IMG/VR virus record: IMGVR_UViG_3300048590_000532
Coordinates: 1-45,722 of that record
Source: a virus
DNA length: 45,722 bases
Strand: one strand, 5' to 3'
The notes beneath the pieces are model-generated. The model was given only the letters and a program-made list of their open reading frames with translations, made no database searches and was not told where the DNA came from. A program made the translations under genes and the position numbers. Positions 262 through 45,064 of this stretch are shown in pieces. Each line of letters begins with the position of its first letter. Position 1 is the first letter of the stretch.

Positions 262-759
262 ATGAACATTGTATTAGAAGGGCCCGATGGTTCCGGCAAA
301 TCAACGCTTGCGCGTATTATTGCGCAACACGTTCCCCTCACATATACGCCGGGCGAAGGACCTCCCAAATACCCGGGCGAGATGGTCGAACGTGTGCGCC
401 GGCTCCTGCGTCTCGATAACTGTCTCTTCGACCGGCATCCCTGCGTGTCGCAACTGATCTACGACCGCTTTCGTGAGGGGGGCGAGGGGCTTCCTGAAGA
501 ACTCGTCGATGCGTTCTATGCGACGAAGCCGTTCTTCATCTATTGCTACGGACGTGCCGGCGCGCATGAAGCCAAGCAGTACGACTCGCCTGAGCACCTG
601 GCGATGGTCGAGCAATTCGATGACAACATCCGCAACGCATACCACGAGTGGGCGCAAGGTCATGTGCCCGCTTATCAGTGGTACTCAGTCGAGTATCACA
701 ACCAATCCCAACTCAATGCCATCATCAACGCCTGCAAGGAGGCCCATCATGCCAAGTGA
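262..759 (+). CDS. deoxynucleoside monophosphate kinase (thymidylate kinase-like P-loop)
   Basis: 165 residues. A Walker A P-loop at the very N-terminus (EGPDGSGKST, residues 6-15) and the FDRHPCVSQLIYD segment near residue 58 match the dNMP kinase/thymidylate kinase fold, in which the DR motif follows the nucleoside-binding region. Family members transfer phosphate from ATP to a dNMP in the cytoplasm. Start chosen at ATG 262, about 7 nt after a GGAAAGG ribosome site and behind the promoter at 197-225. It overlaps the next gene by 11 nt. The neighbours (NTP pyrophosphatase, two TS-superfamily enzymes, dCMP deaminase) make a role in supplying normal or modified dNTPs likely. Which base it accepts cannot be read from sequence. 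Confidence 0.85.
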   Translation: MNIVLEGPDGSGKSTLARIIAQHVPLTYTPGEGPPKYPGEMVERVRRLLRLDNCLFDRHPCVSQLIYDRFREGGEGLPEELVDAFYATKPFFIYCYGRAGAHEAKQYDSPEHLAMVEQFDDNIRNAYHEWAQGHVPAYQWYSVEYHNQSQLNAIINACKEAHHAK

Positions 760-1426
760 ACTTTACCGCCATAAGAAGACCGGCCATATCTACAAGGTCG
801 TGTCATTCTGCGGCAAGATCGAAGCGACGTGGGAAGACGCCGTGATCTATCACCGTCTCGATGGACCGGCGACTGAGCTGATCGCTCGCCCGTCTTCAGA
901 GTTCTTCGATGGTCGCTTCGAGCCGATGGGACCAGCGCCGAAAGACCCAGGCTTTGATCCGCTGGGCGACATCGAAGAGTTCCACACCAGGTTCTACCTG
1001 GAGCCCAATCATCCGATGGGTGCTCTTTCCAATGACACGGCTAAGTTCCGTTACAAGTTTTTGTGTGAGGAGATGGAGGAGTGGTGGAAGCATCAGTGCG
1101 CAGCGTATGACGAGACGACGAGGCCGATGTTCGCGCGTGATGAGGCCAACTACACCTACCATCTCGAGGAAGCACTTGACGGCTTGGTCGACCTGGCCTA
1201 TGTCTTGTTCGGCACGGTCTACCTCCATGGGTTCAAGGGCATCTTTGCTGAGGCCTGGCGTCGTGTCCATGCCGCGAACATGCAGAAGGTCCGGGCTGAG
1301 CTCGATAGCGACAGCAAGCGCGGGTCATCGCTCGACGTGGTGAAACCCGCTGGCTGGGAGAAGCCCACGCACACCGACCTGGTCGAGTGCAACGACATCC
1401 ACCAATCCCACTCAGATCGAGCGTGA
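749..1426 (+). CDS. DUF1653-like domain fused to MazG-type all-alpha NTP pyrophosphatase
   Basis: 225 residues. Start at ATG 749 behind AAGGAGG (736-742), inside the end of the kinase gene. Residues 1-55 resemble DUF1653: a beta-rich segment with KTGHIYKVV, a central acid pair and a W/RP-type end. Residues about 70-200 have the helical MazG/HisE pattern: EEMEEWWKH, then HLEEALDGLVDLAYVLFGT, where the E-x3-E and E-x-x-D acids would bind Mg for hydrolysis of NTPs to NMPs. The ending, with a basic patch and a KPAGWEKP segment, is also typical of phage MazG-like enzymes. Members of this superfamily include dCTPases and dUTPases, so with the adjacent dCMP-hydroxymethylase-like genes it is a candidate for removing dCTP. 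That substrate is inference. Confidence 0.75.
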   Translation: MPSELYRHKKTGHIYKVVSFCGKIEATWEDAVIYHRLDGPATELIARPSSEFFDGRFEPMGPAPKDPGFDPLGDIEEFHTRFYLEPNHPMGALSNDTAKFRYKFLCEEMEEWWKHQCAAYDETTRPMFARDEANYTYHLEEALDGLVDLAYVLFGTVYLHGFKGIFAEAWRRVHAANMQKVRAELDSDSKRGSSLDVVKPAGWEKPTHTDLVECNDIHQSHSDRA

Positions 1427-1437
1427 GACAAACGGCG

Positions 1438-1466
1438 TTGTATTCGGTCGATTGATCGAGTACAAT
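1438..1466 (+). promoter_or_regulatory. sigma70-like promoter with spacer palindrome
   Basis: TTGTAT (1438-1443), 17-bp spacer, TACAAT (1461-1466). The spacer contains the palindrome TCGATTGATCGA, two 5-bp arms around TG, a plausible operator. The start of the next gene is 18 nt after the -10, so the leader is very short and consists almost only of the AAGGAGGTG ribosome site (1471-1479). Confidence 0.6.
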
Positions 1467-1483
1467 GCGCAAGGAGGTGAACT

Positions 1484-1768
1484 ATGGACGTCAACAAGAA
1501 GCAGATTGAGAACGACGGGGACATGCACACGGCCATGAGCGCCGTGCAGTCCGCGTGTCAGTTGCTCGGCACATTCGACTGGCAGCACCTGGTCGATCAG
1601 ACCAACTTCTTCGAAGGGGCCGGAGCTGTCATCCATCCACAGGTCTTCATGGCGATGCAACGCGATCCGCAGTGGGAGCAGAAGAAGCAGCTGTTCCTCG
1701 CCGCGGCCACGTTTGTCGGCAAAGTCGAGGACATCCGGAAGCAGCTGGGGGTCCCCGATGAAGGATAA
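1484..1768 (+). CDS. conserved-type small phage protein, function unknown
   Basis: 94 residues, mostly helical and acidic, with no motif I recognise. It starts at ATG 1484 directly behind an ideal AAGGAGGTG site and its own promoter, so it is very likely expressed. It overlaps the methyltransferase start by 11 nt. Its codon use is that of the surrounding G+C-rich genes and unlike the AT-shifted gene that follows, so the cassette boundary lies close to its 3' end. Confidence 0.6.
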   Translation: MDVNKKQIENDGDMHTAMSAVQSACQLLGTFDWQHLVDQTNFFEGAGAVIHPQVFMAMQRDPQWEQKKQLFLAAATFVGKVEDIRKQLGVPDEG

Positions 1769-2411
1769 CCGTAAACTTATCTACGATCTTTTTGGTGGGA
1801 CGGGGGCTTGGTCGCAATTTTACTACCAAGACTCTAAAAAGTACAGAGTCATCATTGTGGACCCTCGTGCTCAAAGGTCTCCAGAAGATAGAAGAGAAAC
1901 CATACAGGAGTTCCATGACCGGCTGAGAGAGGTCGGGCTCCCCCCAGATCTAATGAGACCCTATGGCATACTAGCGGCTTTTCCTTGCAAACAGTTTGCT
2001 GGTTCGGGGTCTAGGTGGTGGAAGGAAAAGGATGAAAGAAAGCCTTGGCTTATCGAAGGGGCTATAGACAACGTAGTACGAATGATGGACTGTGTCCGTA
2101 TACTGCGACCTACACAGTTCTTTTGCGCCGAAAACCCAGTGGGAAGGGCCCCCCGGCTACTTAAGAAGACCTTAGGACCGTGGGTAATGACCTTCGATCC
2201 TTGCGACTATGGGGGTTGGCTAGAGCCGTCCGGAGATGCCTACACCAAGAAAACCTGTTTATATGGGTGGTTTAACCCTCCTAAGAAAAAACGGGTGGAG
2301 CCCATTGAAGGAAGTAAACTACACAGGCTACCGCCAAGTCCCGACCGAGAATTTCTAAGGTCCATCACCCCCTCGGGCTTTGCCCGAGCTTTTTATGAGG
2401 CCAACCAATGA
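1758..2411 (+). CDS. C5-cytosine DNA methyltransferase (phage Dcm-like, short)
   Basis: 217 residues. Motif I is DLFGGTGAW (10-18, SAM binding), motif IV is FPCKQFAGSG (75-84, catalytic Cys77), motif VI is ENPVGR (125-130), and TKKTCLYGW (163-171) corresponds to motif VIII. It lacks an obvious large target-recognition domain, as is common for compact phage Dcm-like enzymes. The family transfers methyl from SAM to C5 of cytosine in DNA. ATG 1758 is chosen because the SAM motif then begins at residue 10. Base composition is clearly AT-shifted (many AGA, CTA, ATA and TTA codons) relative to genes on both sides, suggesting recent transfer. It is coupled to the next gene by an ATGA overlap. It may protect phage DNA or act with the hydroxymethylase-like neighbour; the target site is unknown. 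Confidence 0.85.
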   Translation: MKDNRKLIYDLFGGTGAWSQFYYQDSKKYRVIIVDPRAQRSPEDRRETIQEFHDRLREVGLPPDLMRPYGILAAFPCKQFAGSGSRWWKEKDERKPWLIEGAIDNVVRMMDCVRILRPTQFFCAENPVGRAPRLLKKTLGPWVMTFDPCDYGGWLEPSGDAYTKKTCLYGWFNPPKKKRVEPIEGSKLHRLPPSPDREFLRSITPSGFARAFYEANQ

Positions 2412-3241
2412 GCATGAAAACGACTTGGATCAATTACTGCATGGAGCTGGCCTGCAGGCCACCCACCTTCTACGCCAATGGCAACCGGAAGATTTTCAGG
2501 CCTGAGTCGTTAAGGTTCACTGGCTTGGATGACAGCATCACTCTGGAGACGGGCGCCTACACCAAGTCCAAGATGACACAGCTAGTCAAGAACTACTACC
2601 ATGAGGAGAGCATCCGAGCGGCGATTCAGTTGTGGGATAAGAGAAGGACCCAGAAGGGCTATGGCTCGGTATCATTTACCTGCTTTGCCCACTTCATCAA
2701 GGGCGGCGGAATAGAGGCCCCCCGGGCTAAGATGGCCTCAGTATTTGGCCCTTGCCTGCAGTCTGTGGTTCTGACCAAGCCGGAAAAGCCTGAAACCCAC
2801 GTTGATGTCTTCTATAGAACCACTGAGCTCTTCAAGAAGTTTCCGGCGGACATGGTCTTCCTTAGGGAAAAGCTCCTGAGCGAGTTCAACTTCGAGGGTT
2901 TTCCCATCAAGTCCGTCACATGCCACTTCGCTAACGCCACTCTACATCCCATGTACTTCGCCGTTATGGTGCCCCACTTAGATGACCCAGTGGAGGAGCT
3001 GGGGGAAGTCGACCGCCTAGATCCGGTCTACCACAGCTGGTTAGTGAAGGCCACCTCTCGGTACTTGGTCCCTAGGTACCACAGGGGTATTGAGAAGCAC
3101 TCCCAGTCAATGTCAGTGTTCCGGGGATTGCGGAAGTATGGAAAGGAAGATATACTAGAAGAACTTGCTGAGTACCTGGAAAGGAAACACCCCGGGCTTC
3201 GGTGGGAGAAGAACGAGAAAATAGAAGAAGGAGATGAATGA
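2408..3241 (+). CDS. thymidylate synthase-superfamily protein with Asp discriminator (dCMP hydroxymethylase-like candidate)
   Basis: 277 residues. The core aligns by eye with thymidylate synthases: FGPC (113-116, Cys116 as nucleophile), YRTTELF (136-142, like the RS-x-D phosphate/folate motif), then FPAD (145-148) where TS has LPFN. Asp148 therefore replaces the Asn that selects dUMP. His180 sits where TS has the His of its H-x-Y motif. Asn to Asp at this site is known to favour dCMP, as in dCMP hydroxymethylase. A second, more canonical member lies one gene downstream. The C-terminal 90 residues (basic, then a charged helix) have no assignment. Base composition is intermediate between the methyltransferase and its neighbours, and the start overlaps that gene by 4 nt. 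Superfamily membership is moderately supported; the exact reaction is inferred. Confidence 0.6.
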   Translation: MSMKTTWINYCMELACRPPTFYANGNRKIFRPESLRFTGLDDSITLETGAYTKSKMTQLVKNYYHEESIRAAIQLWDKRRTQKGYGSVSFTCFAHFIKGGGIEAPRAKMASVFGPCLQSVVLTKPEKPETHVDVFYRTTELFKKFPADMVFLREKLLSEFNFEGFPIKSVTCHFANATLHPMYFAVMVPHLDDPVEELGEVDRLDPVYHSWLVKATSRYLVPRYHRGIEKHSQSMSVFRGLRKYGKEDILEELAEYLERKHPGLRWEKNEKIEEGDE

Positions 3242-3525
3242 TGGCACGACGCAAGGCACCGCAGAACAAGGCCCAGCCTGGTGCCCCCGAGAACAAGGGG
3301 CCGTTTACCGAGGACGAGAAAAAGGAATCGTCTGAGGAGAACTACGACGGCGACGAGCTCACTGACCTGGTGATCCGCGACACGCAACTGCGCCGGCTGC
3401 TGAAGGCCGAGCAGAACGTACGGACCGGCGTCATCAGTTGTGCGGCGTTCCGCGAAATCGCTGAGCGCATCCGCGCTGAGCTCAACGGCAAGGCGGAGTT
3501 CGAGGAGGACCCCAATGGAGCATGA
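3238..3525 (+). CDS. small charged protein, function unknown
   Basis: 95 residues, basic N-terminus (MMARRK), then an acidic stretch and a C-terminal helical half. No known motif. Start is ATG 3238 (or the next codon, 3241), following AAGGAG, overlapping the upstream stop. The first 18 nt (3237-3254) are identical to the start of the putative ssDNA-binding gene at 9762. It sits between the two TS-superfamily genes and overlaps the second by 11 nt, so it is part of the same translationally coupled operon. Confidence 0.55.
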   Translation: MMARRKAPQNKAQPGAPENKGPFTEDEKKESSEENYDGDELTDLVIRDTQLRRLLKAEQNVRTGVISCAAFREIAERIRAELNGKAEFEEDPNGA

Positions 3526-4702
3526 ACGGATTATGCCGTTCAACTACCTGAGTGGCAGGGACACGTTCCAGCGCATCCGCGCACATACATGGAACCTGTT
3601 TCTGTCGCAAAGCCACAAGGTGCATACCGAAAAGTGGCAGGGAGTTGACATCGGCAGTAAGCCTGAGATGGCCAGCTATGAGCTGATGAACTACACGTTC
3701 ACCCATGACCTCATGGGCAACGGCGACCTGCAGCACTGGCGTGATGACGTTCAGCCCAACCTGCCTTGGGCGGACGACCACTTCGAGGAACGTGTCTGCG
3801 GCAAGCCGATCAATCCCGGCGTAGAGTGGGCGAACTGGCCTTGGGGCAAGTCAGCTGACACGTTTCGAGAGCCTTCTGTCAGGACCATGGGAAAGGACGA
3901 CTGGGCATACCTTGCCGGTATCATTGATGGCGAGGGGTCTCTTAGTATCCGAACTGCTAACAGGGATAGAGTATACCCCCGCATCAAGATAACGCAGGTT
4001 GACGAAGCTTTCCTTCGTCAGCTGTATGACAAATGGGGAGTTGGTACTTTCCGTGAGTACAGCGGCGAGAGTAACCAGCTAAGTTCCCGTCAGTCCCACA
4101 TCTGGCGAATATCCTCGAAGGCGGAGGTTCGGTGGATACTCGACGGTTGCTTACCCTACCTTCGGCTGAAGCGGGAACGTGCGCTAGAGTGCCTTGAGTA
4201 TATCGACCCGAAAGAGACGGTATATGATGACCAGCCGCGCTTCAACCACAATTACATGATGCGGTATTGGCCCAAGTTTGCAGGAAGAGACGAGGAACGT
4301 CCGAACTTCGGGATATACAATCCCTACGGTGACCTCAATGACCTGGTCCAGTCGCTTGCTCGCAATCCGCTGTCGCGTCAGGAATGGTTCCCTATCTTCC
4401 ATCCGGAGGACGTGGGCGAGGTCGTCGGCGGACGCAAGCCTTGCTCGCTCGGCTACCAATTCTGGGTGCGAGGTCAACGCCTGCACGTCTACTATCCGCT
4501 TCGTTCCTGCGACTTCTTCCGCCACATGCAGGACGACATCTATCTCACGATCCGGCTCCTGATCTGGGTCCTGAACCGCTGTCGAGAGATCGACGAGGCC
4601 TGGTTCGAAGTTCATCCGGGCACGTTCACGATGCACTGCACCAGCCTCCACGTGTTCGCCAATGATATGGTGCAGATGAGGAAAGAAGGAGCTAAGACAT
4701 GA
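3515..4702 (+). CDS. thymidylate synthase/dCMP hydroxymethylase-like enzyme interrupted in frame by a LAGLIDADG endonuclease domain
   Basis: 395 residues. The TS-type core is split. Residues 1-119 form the N-terminal part, ending in a WPWGKSAD segment. Residues 243-395 restart at the FNHNYMMRYWPKF segment, which corresponds to GPVYG-QWR of TS. They continue with NPLSR (284-288), KPC (308-310, Cys310 nucleophile), RSCDFF (330-335), Asp341 in place of the dUMP-selecting Asn, and SLHVF (377-381) for H-x-Y. Residues about 120-242 are foreign: a LAGLIDADG motif at 133-141 and a typical single-motif endonuclease body. There is no stop, so it is one continuous reading frame. Asp341 argues for dCMP rather than dUMP. 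ATG 3515 overlaps the upstream gene by 11 nt. Whether the inserted domain leaves the enzyme active is unknown. Confidence 0.75.
   Translation: MEHERIMPFNYLSGRDTFQRIRAHTWNLFLSQSHKVHTEKWQGVDIGSKPEMASYELMNYTFTHDLMGNGDLQHWRDDVQPNLPWADDHFEERVCGKPINPGVEWANWPWGKSADTFREPSVRTMGKDDWAYLAGIIDGEGSLSIRTANRDRVYPRIKITQVDEAFLRQLYDKWGVGTFREYSGESNQLSSRQSHIWRISSKAEVRWILDGCLPYLRLKRERALECLEYIDPKETVYDDQPRFNHNYMMRYWPKFAGRDEERPNFGIYNPYGDLNDLVQSLARNPLSRQEWFPIFHPEDVGEVVGGRKPCSLGYQFWVRGQRLHVYYPLRSCDFFRHMQDDIYLTIRLLIWVLNRCREIDEAWFEVHPGTFTMHCTSLHVFANDMVQMRKEGAKT
3872..4237 (+). mobile_element. LAGLIDADG homing endonuclease domain inserted in frame
   Basis: The LAGIIDGEG motif is encoded at 3911-3937, followed by about 95 residues with the usual beta-hairpin and helix layout of single-motif LAGLIDADG enzymes and a basic C-terminal part (LRLKRERA). 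The segment is about 120 codons and splits the TS-like fold just before a conserved active-site motif, the sort of site homing endonucleases target. It is too short to hold a Hint intein domain as well, and the frame is open throughout, so there is no room for a group I intron core. Codon use is mildly AT-shifted against the host gene. Boundaries are estimated from where TS similarity stops and resumes. Confidence 0.7.
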
Positions 4703-5037
4703 AGGGCACTGACTTCCCCGAGGCAACGCTTAAGCTGTTGCCCCCCGAGGGGCATGAAGAGGAGGTGTATCCGCTGCACGTTTGGCGACACCCCGAAGGC
4801 GGCATGGTCATCAGCAAATGGAAGATGACGTGGCGTGAGCGTCTGTCCTGCCTGTGGAACGGATACGTCTGGTTTCACTGCTGGGGCAACACCCATCCTC
4901 CCATGTCCATTGAGACGTCCTACCCGTTCGAGCGTGACAGCGTTCTGGGCATCCGTCGCTCGATCATCTTTGTGGCGATCCTCACCGCACTCGTGCTCGC
5001 CGGCACGGTGTTCCTGTATTTCTCGGAGACCTACTAA
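4699..5037 (+). CDS. phage membrane protein, C-terminal TM segment
   Basis: 112 residues. Residues 28-75 hold a Trp-rich soluble region (KWKMTWRERLSCLWNGYVWF, then HPP-x-SIET) of a kind often seen in small phage proteins of unknown function. Residues 87-107 are one clear transmembrane helix (IIFVAILTALVLAGTVFLYF). It likely sits in the inner membrane with a cytoplasmic N-terminus. The start overlaps the TS-like gene by 4 nt (ATGA) and the stop overlaps the deaminase start, so it is made with the nucleotide enzymes. No function can be assigned. Confidence 0.65.
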   Translation: MKGTDFPEATLKLLPPEGHEEEVYPLHVWRHPEGGMVISKWKMTWRERLSCLWNGYVWFHCWGNTHPPMSIETSYPFERDSVLGIRRSIIFVAILTALVLAGTVFLYFSETY

Positions 5038-5501
5038 TGAGACCCACCCGTCCACAGATGTTCATGGAAATCGCCCATGTCGTGGCCAAGCGGTCCACGT
5101 GCATGAGGCTCAACGTCGGCGCTGTCGTGGTGCAGGATCGACGGATCGTCAGCATCGGCTACAACGGGGCGCCTTCGGGCGCTCCTCACTGTGCGGGCAA
5201 CGAATGCCCGGGCAAGCATCACTGCCATGAAACGATCCATGCCGAGGACAACGCGCTTCGCCGTCTCAACGGCCATGATTACAGACGTAATGGGCCTATT
5301 GACGTCTACGTGACCGATAGCCCTTGCGCCGCCTGTTTCGGGAAGATCAAACGACACGGTTATGTCCGTCGCGTCTTCTTCGCCAACCCCTATCGCATCA
5401 CCGATCACCTGGTGAGCGAGAGGATCGGCATTTACAGAGTCACGCCGGCAGGTTATATTGTCGACTGGAACACGAAGGAACTGGTCGATGTTGAAACGTA
5501 A
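5037..5501 (+). CDS. deoxycytidylate deaminase (ComEB/dCMP deaminase family)
   Basis: 154 residues. Zinc-site signatures are HAE (68-70, with Glu70 as proton shuttle) and PCAAC (96-100, Cys97 and Cys100). A further Cys/His cluster (HCAGNEC to CHET, 51-65) matches the second zinc site of phage and Bacillus dCMP deaminases. The reaction is dCMP + H2O to dUMP + NH3, feeding thymidylate. The start overlaps the previous stop by one base (TAATG). In a phage that may also hydroxymethylate dCMP, this enzyme would compete for, or divert, the same pool. It overlaps the polymerase start by 14 nt. Confidence 0.92.
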   Translation: MRPTRPQMFMEIAHVVAKRSTCMRLNVGAVVVQDRRIVSIGYNGAPSGAPHCAGNECPGKHHCHETIHAEDNALRRLNGHDYRRNGPIDVYVTDSPCAACFGKIKRHGYVRRVFFANPYRITDHLVSERIGIYRVTPAGYIVDWNTKELVDVET

Positions 5502-7941
5502 GGCCGAGCGCATTGCCGTCATTACTGAGTCTCCGGAAGGGTGCGGTAGAACTGAAGATGCCATCGACTACATTATCGGGCCGCTCGAGGAGAGGTATGA
5601 GGTCGAGCATATCTCCGTCCTCGACGGCGACCCGAAAAACGGCAAAGCTGCAACCAAGACCGAAATCAAGCATGCCCGTGACCATGTGCTCGAAGCCATC
5701 GAAGGTTTCAAGTATGTGGTCATTGTGGGCAACACGCCCCTCCAGCTTATCACGGGTAAAGCCGGCATTAGCAAGCTTCGGGGAAGGCCGCTCAAGCGGG
5801 ACGGCTACATTTTCCTGCCCATGAATAATCCCGGCATCATCCGCCACGACGACAAGCAAGAAATGCTGCTCAACGCCGACCTCCAGTTCCTGGAGGACAT
5901 GGTCAAGTTCGGCGGCATCCCCGAGACGAAGGAGCTCGACTTCCGGATCGTCATGTGCGACGATGACATAGACGAGATGCTCGAGGACCTTCACGGCGCG
6001 GTGTCCTACGACATCGAAACGACGCAGCTCTACCCCTGGCAGACGCAGCACTTCAACGAAAAGACGGGCGAATGGGTTAAGGACCCGGAGCCTAAGATCG
6101 TCAGCATCGGCTTCGGTACAGCGCGCCATCAATGGTGCATTCCGGTCAATCATCCACAGTCTCCCTGGACGCAGGCTGAGGTCGAGGAGATGCTCGACGA
6201 GATAAACGAGCGCCGCGATGACTTCATGCTGATAGCGCACAACGGGAAGTTTGACCTCCTGTGGACATGGGTTCATCTGGGCGTCAAATGGGAAGTCGAC
6301 TTCGACACGATGCTGGCGCACTACCTGCTTGACGAGAACATGCGTCACGGGTTGAAGTATCTCGCCCAGGTGTATTGCGGTGCGCCTGACTGGGAAATCG
6401 ACCTGACCGAAAAGCAGGGCATGAACGTCCCGCTGAAGAAACATTGCAAGTATCTGGCCCACGACTTGTATTACACGCGCAAGCTGCGGTACGTGTTCGG
6501 CAAGATGTTGAAGGAGGACTGGGAAGTCAAGCGTGTCTTCGACAAGATCATGATGCCGTGCGCCAACCTGTTCGTCGAGGTTGAGTATGATGGCGTCTTC
6601 ATTGACATGGATCAATTCGGCGAAGCAGAGGAGGTACTACGTGAGCAATACGAAACAGCCCTTGCCGAGCTCAAGGAATGGGAGCCCGAGTATGTCCTCG
6701 ATGCTAAAGGCAAGAAACAGCCTTTCAACTGGGGCTCACCCGTTCAACTTGCCAAGCTGCTATTCGAAGACCTCGGCATCAAACCCCTGGACAAGACTGC
6801 TGCTGGCAATCCATCGACTAGCGAGAGCGTTATCAAACGCCTTGACCATCCTTGCACAGAAGCTCTCTTGCGCTTTAGAGCGGCTAAGCAGCAGCTATCG
6901 TTCTTCATCGACGGGTGGAAGCCTTTCCTCCACAAGCAATCCCGCGGGTACTACCTGCACCCCTCGTTCAAGTTACATGGAACAGTCACGGGGCGCCTAT
7001 CTTGCGAGCATCCGAACCTTCAGCAAGTGCCACGTGACCCGCGCATCCGTTCCCTTATATCGGCCGAAAAAGGTTGGACGCTCATTCAGTGTGACCTGTC
7101 TCAGGCCGAGCTGAGGATTGCCGCCGAGCTCGCTCGCGAGCGCAACATGATCCACGCCTTCATCAACGGCATTGACGTTCACTGGTTGACAGCGATCCGT
7201 GAGATTGCACGTGGCGGCGGACTTGTCGAGCTCGTCATGGATACTGCTAAAAAGCTTAACGGTTCGAAGCTGTCTTACAGCGATGCCATCGAGCTGCTCA
7301 TCAAGGCGGGTCACGAAGCCTGCATCGACGTGAACGGCGAATGGAAGGAGTATCGCAAAAAGGCCAAGGCTGTGAACTTCGGCTACCTCTATGGCATGTG
7401 GTGGAAGAAGTTCAAGATATACGCTCGCGATAACTATGGCGTCATCATCAGCGACGAGGAAGCCGAGGCGTCCCGCGTTACCTTCTTCGACAACTACCCC
7501 GATCTCGAACCATGGCACAAGCGTCAACGCAAGTACGTCCGTCGGCACGGCTACGTCAAGTCGCTGTCAGGTCGCAAGCGTCGACTGCCCGAGGCACGAA
7601 GCGCTGACGACACGCCTGAGCGCCGAGCTGCAGAGCGCCAGGCAATCAACTCGCCTGTGCAATCGTTCGCTAACGAAGTGAACCTCATGGCTGCGATACA
7701 GCTGCGCAAGGAGTACGGTCGTGACGTTGTGAAGATCTGTGGTACTGTTCACGACTCCGTGCTGTTCCGGGTCCGGAATGACATGGTCAAGGAGGTGTAC
7801 TATCGGATGCTCGAAATCATGCGTTGGCCCGAGCTGATGGATGAGTTCGACATCGAGATGAGTGTTCCCATCGAAGCCGACGGTGAGATCGGTCCTTGGG
7901 GCAAAGGTAAACCGTTTGAGAAATGGAAGGAAGCAGCATGA
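5488..7941 (+). CDS. polA: DNA polymerase I (family A) with UDG-like N-terminal domain and 3'-5' exonuclease
   Basis: 817 residues. Residues 1-140 resemble a family 4/5 uracil-DNA glycosylase fold (VVIVGN at 77-82, KLRGRP, MNNPGIIR) but lack the GEAPG catalytic loop, so probably inactive. Exonuclease motifs are DIET (175-178), HNGKFD (251-256) and YLAHD (322-326). Polymerase motif A is DLSQAELR (536-543), motif B is K-x-x-K-x-VNFGYLYG (624-636), and motif C is HDS (755-757) where most have HDE. A segment of about 50 extra residues lies between motifs A and B. There is no 5'-nuclease domain. Phe631 in NFG is the ordinary residue at the position that varies in environmental phages. ATG 5488 is preferred over 5458 because of the AAGGA site. 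This is the replicative polymerase. Confidence 0.93.
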   Translation: MLKRKAERIAVITESPEGCGRTEDAIDYIIGPLEERYEVEHISVLDGDPKNGKAATKTEIKHARDHVLEAIEGFKYVVIVGNTPLQLITGKAGISKLRGRPLKRDGYIFLPMNNPGIIRHDDKQEMLLNADLQFLEDMVKFGGIPETKELDFRIVMCDDDIDEMLEDLHGAVSYDIETTQLYPWQTQHFNEKTGEWVKDPEPKIVSIGFGTARHQWCIPVNHPQSPWTQAEVEEMLDEINERRDDFMLIAHNGKFDLLWTWVHLGVKWEVDFDTMLAHYLLDENMRHGLKYLAQVYCGAPDWEIDLTEKQGMNVPLKKHCKYLAHDLYYTRKLRYVFGKMLKEDWEVKRVFDKIMMPCANLFVEVEYDGVFIDMDQFGEAEEVLREQYETALAELKEWEPEYVLDAKGKKQPFNWGSPVQLAKLLFEDLGIKPLDKTAAGNPSTSESVIKRLDHPCTEALLRFRAAKQQLSFFIDGWKPFLHKQSRGYYLHPSFKLHGTVTGRLSCEHPNLQQVPRDPRIRSLISAEKGWTLIQCDLSQAELRIAAELARERNMIHAFINGIDVHWLTAIREIARGGGLVELVMDTAKKLNGSKLSYSDAIELLIKAGHEACIDVNGEWKEYRKKAKAVNFGYLYGMWWKKFKIYARDNYGVIISDEEAEASRVTFFDNYPDLEPWHKRQRKYVRRHGYVKSLSGRKRRLPEARSADDTPERRAAERQAINSPVQSFANEVNLMAAIQLRKEYGRDVVKICGTVHDSVLFRVRNDMVKEVYYRMLEIMRWPELMDEFDIEMSVPIEADGEIGPWGKGKPFEKWKEAA

Positions 7942-42924: not shown

Positions 42925-43238
42925 CCAGGTCTACCTCATCGCTCGTTTGTGAGTTCGTCACCGACCTCAAGTCCGGTGAGGAGTTCACAGCCCGGCAACT
43001 GTTCGAGTTGCTCGAGCAGGACGGTGCAACACATGCCGCAGTGTCCGGCACGTTGCATCGCCTGGTCCGCCTCGACATCCTGGCAATCGTCCGCAAGGAC
43101 TACCTCGGATGCGAGCGCAAGTCGTATGTCTTTCAGGTGGTCAACCCCGACCTGCCTGTGACGACAAACGAACACAAACGGTCCGTCTGCGGGTTCACCC
43201 GCACGGACACCGAACGCACCCCACTTTTCAAGGAGTAA
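42921..43238 (+). CDS. winged-helix DNA-binding protein
   Basis: 105 residues. Residues 5-70 read as a winged helix: FTARQLFELLEQDGATHAAV then SGTLHRLVRLDILAIVRKDY as recognition helix and wing, like PadR/MarR-type or phage arsR-like folds. The tail is Thr/Arg rich. Part of the operon under the inverted-repeat promoter, so it may autoregulate it (inference). Confidence 0.65.
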   Translation: MTRSTSSLVCEFVTDLKSGEEFTARQLFELLEQDGATHAAVSGTLHRLVRLDILAIVRKDYLGCERKSYVFQVVNPDLPVTTNEHKRSVCGFTRTDTERTPLFKE

Positions 43239-43243
43239 ATCCT

Positions 43244-43873
43244 ATGGCGAAACGCCCCACGAAAAAAGCGCAACCGACCACGGAGACATACCCTGTCTTG
43301 CAGCAGGCGTATGACCACTTCAACGAAACCCTCTTCGACGGTCAGTTGCCGAACTGTCTCATCACCCTAAGCGCCGAACTGAAGAAGGCCTATGGGTACT
43401 ATCGCAACCACCCCTTCGCTCACACCAAATTGAAGGACCAGTCGACGGACGAAATCTCGCTCAACCCGTTCACGTTCACCGGACGCAGCGACCGCGACAT
43501 CTACTCGACGCTCGTCCACGAAATGGTGCACCTATGGCAGCATCACTTCGGCGTCGATAACAAGAAGACCGCTCATGACAAGGAGTGGGCGAACAAGATG
43601 GAAGAGATCGGATTGATGCCATCTTCCACAGGTGCCGAGGGGGGCAAGCGCACCGGTCGTCGCGTGTCGCACTACATCATCGAGGGTGGAGCGTTCGACA
43701 TCGCCGAGAAGAAGTTCAAGGGCGTGATCGCTTGGCGCGGTGCACCCATCGAGCGCGTCAAGAAAGGCAGCAAGCGAACCAAGTACTCGTGCCCTATGTG
43801 TGAGACCAACGCCTACGGCAAACCGGAACTGTCGCTCATCTGCGGCGACTGTGATGAGGGGATGACGGCATGA
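43244..43873 (+). CDS. SprT-like zinc metalloprotease
   Basis: 209 residues from ATG 43244 behind AAGGAG. Catalytic HEMVH (92-96) followed by LWQHHFG and a third-ligand KTAHDKEW segment, the SprT/Spartan-like order. The C-terminus has a zinc ribbon (CPMC, CGDC about 15 residues apart). Family members cleave DNA-bound proteins, for example DNA-protein crosslinks. A phage version may clear host proteins from DNA. Followed by an ATGA overlap. Confidence 0.85.
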   Translation: MAKRPTKKAQPTTETYPVLQQAYDHFNETLFDGQLPNCLITLSAELKKAYGYYRNHPFAHTKLKDQSTDEISLNPFTFTGRSDRDIYSTLVHEMVHLWQHHFGVDNKKTAHDKEWANKMEEIGLMPSSTGAEGGKRTGRRVSHYIIEGGAFDIAEKKFKGVIAWRGAPIERVKKGSKRTKYSCPMCETNAYGKPELSLICGDCDEGMTA

Positions 43874-44487: not shown

Positions 44488-44669
44488 AACCCGATGTAAT
44501 CCAAATCCCCGTGGACACCCACTACCCTGATACCAGTCGCCGCAGGAAAGTCAGGGAACTAGCCTATAAGCTGGGTTACCGCACCTACATCGGCACTTTT
44601 ATTGTCCCGCCCGATGGTGATGATGACCAGGAGTTTCGGGTCTTTGAGTATAGGAAAACCCTACAATGA
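44484..44669 (+). CDS. small protein, function unknown
   Basis: 61 residues from ATG 44484. Alternating short strands and a basic helix (DTSRRRKVRELAYKLGYRTY), then an acidic turn with DGDDDQEFRVFEY. Codon use is somewhat more AT-rich than the neighbours. ATGA overlaps on both sides. Confidence 0.55.
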   Translation: MKPDVIQIPVDTHYPDTSRRRKVRELAYKLGYRTYIGTFIVPPDGDDDQEFRVFEYRKTLQ

Positions 44670-45064
44670 CCCGCATCAACGTCGTCCCCGTAACCGAGCT
44701 GACTGACAAGCACCTGCTCGCCGAGTACCGCGAACTTCCTCGCATCTTCGGCGCATCGAAAAAGTGGTATGAGCGCGGCGGACGTGTTCGTGATCTTCCG
44801 ACCACGTATCGTCTCGGCAAAGGGCATGTCCTGTTCTTCTACAACAAGCTGGAGTATTGCTTCACTCGTCAGCAATCCCTTGTCGCCGAGTGCAAGCGCC
44901 GCGGGTTCAAGGTGCAGCACGAGCCTTCACTCGACTTGATCAGCTGGGCCCCGCATTACCTGTATCACAGCTATCAACCTACACGCGCAGCGTTGCGTAT
45001 CAATCGCGAGCGCATCAATACACGCTTGCGCGAGGTGTCACAGCGTCGCACAGCGAGCGCGTGA
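44666..45064 (+). CDS. denV: T4 endonuclease V-type pyrimidine dimer DNA glycosylase
   Basis: 132 residues closely following T4 DenV: MTRINVVPVTELTDKHLLAE at the start, with Thr2 as the Schiff-base nucleophile and Glu23 in EYRELPR as catalytic acid, FFYNKLEYC in place of FFYDKLEFL, and a basic RRGFKV turn. The C-terminal third diverges and is shorter and more basic. It excises UV-induced pyrimidine dimers (glycosylase plus AP lyase). It is the last gene of this operon. Confidence 0.93.
   Translation: MTRINVVPVTELTDKHLLAEYRELPRIFGASKKWYERGGRVRDLPTTYRLGKGHVLFFYNKLEYCFTRQQSLVAECKRRGFKVQHEPSLDLISWAPHYLYHSYQPTRAALRINRERINTRLREVSQRRTASA

Follow-up and report, generated by a model that had tools for sequence, protein, structure and literature searches.

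Relation of the locus to described cytosine-modification systems

In MetaGPA, a survey in which environmental DNA with modified cytosine was selected (eLife 2021), the thymidylate synthase (TS) domain was the one most strongly associated with the modification, and on the modified contigs it co-occurred with the families PF01503, PF00383 and PF14437 (PMC8670742). Position 177 of TS was mostly Asp in these contigs, and positions 147 and 177 were the two that differed (PMC8670742). Among the individual phage enzymes of this superfamily, the deoxycytidine monophosphate (dCMP) hydroxymethylase gp42 of T4 lacks the C-terminal tail of TS (PMC6400193), and the enzyme of Mosigvirus (RB69-type) is a 5-hydroxy-dCMP synthase (PMC13390438). 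Here we describe a gene cassette with two TS-fold proteins, P1 and P2, in the left part of IMG/VR virus record IMGVR_UViG_3300048590_000532. The whole stretch of 45.7 kb that was analysed is referred to as the window, and it carries the siphophage genes for a major tail protein, a tape measure, a portal and a terminase. We consider this region to be a cassette for the modification of cytosine at the nucleotide level, in which P2 most likely makes 5-hydroxymethyl-dCMP, P1 is a second enzyme and a LAGLIDADG domain nested in P2 is a captured endonuclease. To this reading as a whole we assign a probability of roughly 60%.

The genes of the left part lie on the plus strand in the order deoxynucleoside monophosphate (dNMP) kinase, nucleoside triphosphate (NTP) pyrophosphohydrolase, methyltransferase-like gene, P1, a small open reading frame (ORF), P2, a small conserved ORF, dCMP deaminase and family A DNA polymerase. 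The main features are listed below, where full loci are those of at least 11 kb.

262 to 759, plus strand: dNMP (thymidylate-type) kinase; phrog_761 1.4e-13, P-loop GPDGSGKST; present in 28 of 28 full P1-anchored loci
about 749 to 1426 (start approximate), plus strand: all-alpha NTP pyrophosphohydrolase of the dCTPase/dUTPase/MazG type; phrog_671 2.5e-17; present in 28 of 28 full P1-anchored loci
2408 to 3241, plus strand: P1, TS-superfamily companion, 277 amino acids; AlphaFold2 model and residue conservation
2753 to 2755, plus strand: Cys116 of P1, at the nucleophile position (Cys146 of E. coli TS); 77 of 77 in the family
2849 to 2851, plus strand: Asp148 of P1, at the Asn177 position; 77 of 78 in the family
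3515 to 4702, plus strand: P2, TS-superfamily dCMP-type enzyme (predicted dCMP 5-hydroxymethylase), 395 amino acids; PF00303 4.2e-08 and AlphaFold2 model
4442 to 4444, plus strand: Cys310 of P2, at the position of the catalytic nucleophile; 94 of 94
4535 to 4537, plus strand: Asp341 of P2, at the Asn177 position, predicted to select cytosine; 94 of 94
5037 to 5501, plus strand: dCMP deaminase; PF00383 3.5e-19, PF14437 3.8e-09, phrog_174 1e-38
5494 to 7941, plus strand: family A DNA polymerase (PolA), end of the conserved block; PF00476 1.6e-71; present in 28 of 28 full P1-anchored loci

All four Pfam families of the MetaGPA cassette (PF00303, PF01503, PF00383 and PF14437) are represented in the window, together with Asp at position 177 and a residue other than His at position 147. 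The match of the pyrophosphohydrolase to PF01503 (PRA-PH) had an E-value of 0.0036, which is below the curated cut-off, and its assignment is supported by phrog_671. Because the gene set corresponds to that of MetaGPA in these families and in Asp177, a modification of cytosine is likely; indeed, we regard a cytosine modification of some form as highly probable, with the mononucleotide level as the best reading of where it takes place. The locus differs from the MetaGPA cassette in that no carbamoyltransferase was found, and in that one of its proteins, P1, is not matched by the Pfam TS family and would thus have been invisible to a study based on Pfam. What is distinctive here, within a known kind of cassette, is the TS companion without a folate segment and the nested endonuclease. 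The initial annotation of this DNA had given the two TS-superfamily ORFs with correct coordinates and had named the adjoining kinase and pyrophosphatase, all of which agree with our results; the deaminase, the LAGLIDADG domain, the methyltransferase-like gene and the missing folate segment of P1 are additions to its list.

P2 has the features of a dCMP-type TS-fold enzyme

P2 matched the TS family PF00303 above the cut-off, and phrog_160 with an E-value of 3.1e-26. Conservation was counted among 94 aligned relatives, the loci of which had partly been fetched by a pattern of which Cys310 was a part and Asp341 was not. Asp341, Cys310, Arg330 and His379 were invariant in all 94 sequences, as were Tyr247 and Arg288 wherever they could be aligned (93 sequences). 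Since Asp341 is outside the fetching pattern, the way in which the loci were selected does not account for its invariance, whereas it does so in part for Cys310. Cys310 belongs to a Pro-Cys pair (P309-C310), and Asp341 follows the phosphate-binding Arg by 11 residues, which is exactly the distance from Arg166 to Asn177 in E. coli TS and from Arg168 to Asp179 in T4 gp42. This spacing was 11 in all the classes compared, namely E. coli TS, T4 gp42, RB69, P1 and P2. When a profile built from 14 relatives of P2 was searched against all PDB chains, the best match was the N229D mutant of Lactobacillus casei TS, the PDB entry of which has dCMP as the ligand according to its title, and the Asp341 column aligned without a gap on Asp229 of this mutant. 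The proposal of the initial annotation that Asp148 of P1 and Asp341 of P2 occupy the position of Asn177, the residue of TS that selects deoxyuridine monophosphate (dUMP), is thus upheld by spacing and conservation in both proteins and by this alignment for P2.

The equivalents of Tyr94, Asp169 and His207 of TS are kept in P2 as Y247, D333 and H379. The pterin-contacting Asp, D333, was found in 93 of the 94 relatives and is replaced by Asn in RB69, and the position of His147 of E. coli TS is occupied by Ser or Thr in P2 and by Thr in both T4 gp42 and RB69. The protein ends 16 residues past His379 and therefore lacks the C-terminal tail of TS, and the same is true for its relatives. In structure comparisons, the AlphaFold2 model of P2 resembled human TS (Z 19.3), T4 dCMP hydroxymethylase (1b49; Z 19.1, root-mean-square deviation 2.7 over 218 residues) and MilA (Z 18.8), a TS-superfamily enzyme that acts on cytidine monophosphate (CMP) as a CMP hydroxymethylase in antibiotic biosynthesis. 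Altogether, the comparisons support the prediction that P2 is a TS-fold protein with dCMP-type specificity.

P1 is a TS-fold companion that seems to lack the folate segment

The relationship of P1 to TS was visible only through structure, because searches with sequences and profiles yielded nothing credible. In Pfam and PHROGs no TS model was matched, the only match being phrog_34294 of unknown function; the best match among PDB sequences was an intein with an E-value of 1.3; and comparison by hhalign with the TS, T4 and RB69 profiles gave no useful match. The AlphaFold2 model of P1, with a mean predicted local distance difference test (pLDDT) score of 91.5, gave a clear picture, as the best 50 matches in the PDB were all TS-superfamily proteins (Z 11.7-15.0). 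Among these 50, the nearest were 9iqu (Z 15.0) and 9iqc (Z 14.5), followed by MilA (Z 13.8) and TS (12.7 and below). The assignment of both proteins to the TS superfamily in the initial annotation was therefore confirmed by their models, with Z values to TS of 12-13 in the case of P1. By their titles, the entries 9iqu and 9iqc show AfhB, a dCMP hydroxylase of a phage, together with dCMP, and a monooxygenase dependent on riboflavin together with dCMP and flavin adenine dinucleotide; the sequence of RB69 ORF048c is nearly identical to both.

Conservation of P1 was assessed in 79 P1-like sequences. Tyr63, Cys116 (77 of 77) and Arg137 were fully invariant among the aligned sequences, and Asp148, which lies 11 residues past the phosphate Arg137, was present in 77 of 78. 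Judged by position, Tyr63 would be the equivalent of Tyr94 in TS. The Pro-Cys pair noted in the initial annotation is present in P1 as P115-C116, although in the wider P1 family the Pro before the Cys is not invariant (25 sequences). The segment from the first beta strands to the Tyr, which in TS holds Glu58 and Trp80, comprises about 30 residues in P1 versus about 60 in E. coli TS, as judged from the secondary structure of the model and from the sequences. On this basis, P1 seems to lack the folate-site segment of TS and to keep the base-activating residues Tyr, Cys, Arg and Asp. P1 and P2 are therefore not equivalent proteins.

The P1 family has no Pfam TS match, and its members are annotated as ‘hypothetical’ in most records. 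When P1 sequences from phages of proteobacteria and actinobacteria were aligned together, their diversity was too great for scanning with a pattern, which succeeded with a narrower alignment; a scan of viral contigs with the single P1 sequence found nothing. Some phages, among them PMBT14, Lebethron, STP12 and uncultured ones, have a further P1-like TS ORF, mostly shorter than P1, 3' of P2. These ORFs lie in loci L006 (8750-9313), L009 (5932-6525), L010 (2807-3520), L036 (8159-8701), L042 (7386-7964), L043 (6771-7319), L078 (7020-7862) and L085 (7002-7571).

The cassette is conserved among diverse phages

The order kinase-NTPase-P1-P2-deaminase-PolA recurs, with small variations, in phages of Brevundimonas, Yersinia, Pseudomonas, Serratia, Mycobacterium (Muddy and NoShow), Gordonia and Streptomyces, as well as in uncultured phages. 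In each of the 28 full loci anchored on P1, the genes for P2, kinase, pyrophosphatase, deaminase and PolA were present as well, and P1 was recognised in 38 of the 51 full loci anchored on P2. P1 thus seems to depend on P2, and not the reverse. The genes for P1 and P2 usually abut or overlap. Two relatives additionally encode ThyX, which would be expected if P2 is not the enzyme that makes thymidine monophosphate for these phages.

No glycosyltransferase, dioxygenase or carbamoyltransferase was recognised, in agreement with the initial annotation as far as the first two are concerned, and a carbamoyltransferase of the Xp15 type was specifically sought in all related loci without success. Clustering of the neighbouring ORFs in these loci yielded no recurrent candidate for a hypermodification enzyme, and nothing recurred beyond the known core genes and small proteins of unknown function.

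Proposed pathway and alternative explanations

We propose that the all-alpha pyrophosphohydrolase would convert host deoxycytidine triphosphate (dCTP) to dCMP, which P2 would bind through Asp341; Cys310 would then attack C6 and a one-carbon unit would be added at C5. The kinase likely phosphorylates the modified dCMP and would thereby return the product to the triphosphate pool for incorporation by the phage polymerase. The dCMP deaminase may supply dUMP for thymidylate and at the same time drain unmodified deoxycytidine. P1 would probably act after or together with P2, either by modifying its product or by forming a mixed complex. With cytosine as the inferred substrate, P2 most likely produces 5-hydroxymethyl-dCMP, although the exact identity of the product is a guess; this compound is favoured because the TS C-terminal tail is absent as in the T4 enzyme and because the pterin Asp is kept. 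The final base may be 5-hydroxymethylcytosine, 5-hydroxycytosine, 5-methylcytosine or a further modified form, and 5-hydroxymethylcytosine is our best guess. The reaction of P1 is likewise a guess.

The resemblance to the T4 system (gp42 with gp56, gp1 and cd) comprises the TS fold, the Cys nucleophile, Asp at position 177/179, the absence of the TS C-terminal tail and the companion kinase, pyrophosphatase and deaminase. Several observations weigh against the proposed reading. In a tree of the core region, in which E. coli TS and two other sequences had long branches, P2 formed a deep clade of its own (100/98), apart from the T4 clade (100/98) and from RB69. The water-activating Asp145 of T4 is absent from P2, which has Arg307 instead (94 of 94), three residues before the Cys. 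The folate-activating Glu58/60 of TS and T4 gp42 has no clear counterpart in P2: in the profile alignment it falls on Asn82, and the neighbouring D/E87 (acidic in 58 of 58) is an alternative. About a quarter of the full P2-anchored loci are without a recognisable P1, the insertion of an endonuclease could impair P2 in the window phage, and our literature search found no assay of an enzyme or of virion DNA from phages with P2 and P1. A term-based search of the paper on Yersinia phage P744 gave no passage on modification or digestion. The window also differs from the T4 system in the extra companion P1, in the endonuclease nested in P2, in its siphophage genes and in the lack of a recognised glucosyltransferase. 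The wording ‘T4-like set’ in the initial annotation therefore finds no support, also because P1 seems to have no folate segment: P2 would work like gp42, yet is not classed as a member of the gp42 group, and the likely cytosine modification is of a known kind and not derived from T4. The cytosine modification suggested in that annotation is retained with regard to the nucleotide level and the dCMP-type specificity, but T4-type hydroxymethylation is not the sole option, in view of the RB69-type synthesis of 5-hydroxy-dCMP.

Of the other explanations, the one that survives best, albeit as a doubtful one, is that P1 has no enzymatic activity of its own and is an obligatory partner that completes the active site of P2 in a heterodimer. 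This would fit with the constant presence of P2 beside P1, with the abutting or overlapping genes and with the missing folate segment, and TS active sites do receive phosphate-binding arginines from the other subunit. However, a scaffold would not need Y63, C116, R137 and D148, which P1 keeps across very low identity, and the full P2 loci without a recognisable P1 are difficult to reconcile with an obligatory partner. Somewhat more speculative is the idea that P1 represents a new TS-fold class which, after loss of the folate site, uses a different chemistry at C5 of a cytosine nucleotide. Such an enzyme might take the hydroxymethylated product of P2, re-form the exocyclic methylene through Cys116 and attach a new group, or it might oxidise C5 with a flavin. 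If true, this would explain why no glycosyltransferase or carbamoyltransferase acting at the DNA level was detected.

It is unlikely that P2, P1 or both are flavin-dependent dCMP 5-hydroxylases like AfhB, so that the virion DNA would contain 5-hydroxycytosine and not 5-hydroxymethylcytosine. The RB69-type enzymes share the TS fold and Asp at position 177, they include the solved structures closest to P1, and the near-identity of RB69 ORF048c to 9iqc links these structures to the Mosigvirus synthase (PMC13390438). Moreover, MAFFT paired the P2 loop before the Tyr94 position (WPWG..NAAKF) with that of RB69 (YP..NVAKF). On the other hand, the identity of P1 to these proteins is 14% over the aligned residues, the pterin Asp of P2 is absent from RB69, P2 groups apart from the RB69-type clade, and the model of P2 is closest to TS and T4 dCMP hydroxymethylase; that 9iqu was outside the best 50 matches listed for P2 is a weak absence. 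The known RB69-type modification is glycosylated (PMC13390438), whereas neither a glycosyltransferase nor a sugar-handling cluster was recognised in the window.

An ordinary role in thymidylate metabolism, with an increased supply of thymidine triphosphate (dTTP), depletion of host dCTP and canonical virion DNA, appears very unlikely. The dCMP deaminase and NTP pyrophosphatase also belong to pathways of dTTP supply, and annotators have named these genes thymidylate synthase and thymidylate kinase, but the nearly universal Asp in place of Asn177 in both families disfavours dUMP as the substrate, P2 lacks the TS tail, and two relatives have a separate ThyX. Even less probable is that P2 is a dCMP methylase that makes 5-methylcytosine at the nucleotide level: Asn-to-Asp mutants of TS are deoxycytidylate methylases in the account that PMC8670742 gives of Liu and Santi 1992, but P2 and its relatives resemble the T4 enzyme, which hydroxymethylates, in having no C-terminal tail, and P1 would be left unexplained.

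A LAGLIDADG domain is nested in frame in P2

Between F117 and F243, P2 contains 125 residues (375 nucleotides), compared with 6 in a relative from a Desulfofustis phage that is 88% identical to it. The insertion carries the following features.

3866 to 4240, plus strand: in-frame insertion in P2, F117 to F243; alignments, same site in loci L015 and L016
3887 to 4207, plus strand: single-motif LAGLIDADG domain, YLAGIIDGEG, with its own possible ATG, P2 residues about 125-231; phrog_5046 4.9e-18

The domain matched PF00961 (3.2e-04, just below the curated cut-off), I-MsoI in the two-domain construct 3fd2 (8.7e-07) and also I-CreI-like proteins, with which it shares a single LAGLIDADG motif, and the helix-strand order of the fold was seen in the AlphaFold2 model at low confidence. 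The same domain is found in frame at the same site in L015, with 85% identity across the domain, and in L016, with 40%, and the reading frame is open across both junctions in these three diverged phages. In the comparison of the window with L015, the ratio of non-synonymous to synonymous substitution rates (dN/dS) was about 0.2-0.27 in both flanks, and the insert had a dN of 0.095 with saturated dS. Both the flanks and the insert are under purifying selection, and the fusion is therefore old and apparently kept functional.

A group I intron was rejected, since a scan of 3515-4702 against Rfam gave no match even at an E-value of 5 and about 320 of the 375 nucleotides code for the endonuclease, which leaves no room for a ribozyme. 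That the insertion is an intron or an intein, leaving the mature P2 uninterrupted, is highly improbable: such elements are frequent in phage genes and the site is conserved and adjacent to the active site, as for mobile introns (PMC2988022), but there is neither a ribozyme, nor an intein family among the Pfam matches, nor any intein splicing motif seen by eye in the translation, and the frame stays open.

The insertion point presumably corresponds to the loop that bears the natural 50-residue insertion of L. casei TS, which makes a folded insert plausible at this site. The LAGLIDADG domain would be a captured homing endonuclease lodged in a small-domain loop, allowing the gene to spread by homing and the enzyme still to fold; that the nested domain is active as an endonuclease is a guess. 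It differs from I-CreI and I-MsoI in its place within the reading frame of an enzyme, where neither an intron nor an intein was detected. Of 69 related phage loci, 67 have a LAGLIDADG sequence that is not flanked by long sequence on both sides, as in free-standing genes; the L016 contig itself is among the two exceptions. In the known phage cases, mobE in nrdA and mobA in gene 60, the host gene is broken into separate ORFs (PMC2988022), whereas in P2 the parts are fused. Our literature search found no paper that describes an in-frame nested endonuclease in a phage gene. In Mycobacterium phage BaboJay (L096, 1318-3147), a LAGLIDADG gene annotated as HNH is located between two ORFs annotated as RNA ligase, an arrangement that resembles the splitting of a host gene by a homing endonuclease.

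Other genes of the window

Two further genes lie between the genes of the cassette.

about 1758 to 2411, plus strand: DNA methyltransferase-like gene; phrog_757 2.5e-34, C5-methyltransferase-like motifs DLFGGTG, FPC and ENP
4699 to 5037, plus strand: small conserved protein of 112 amino acids, directly 3' of P2; phrog_25433 7.9e-10, in 20 related loci

The methyltransferase-like gene had no match in the genomes of L018, L020 and L024 and does not belong to the conserved set; in the window, it is located among cassette genes that may by themselves bring about modification at C5. Elsewhere, the window encodes an SprT-like protein (43109-43870; PF10263, 4.7e-17) and an endonuclease V-like repair enzyme (44666-45064; phrog_1183, 4.4e-41), and the same annotations are also found among relatives.

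Implications

The cassette also occurs in cultured phages, among them mycobacteriophage Muddy and phages of Gordonia, Serratia and Pseudomonas, and the predicted cytosine modification would have consequences for restriction, for sensitivity to CRISPR and for sequencing. With the endonuclease nested in P2, the window phage would offer a clear example of a homing endonuclease that resides in a functional enzyme and involves no splicing. P1 represents a widespread TS-superfamily family that may hold new C5-cytosine chemistry. If the novel route considered for P1 is true, a hypermodified cytosine would be made wholly at the mononucleotide level, and the first enzyme of the pathway in the window phage would double as a homing endonuclease.

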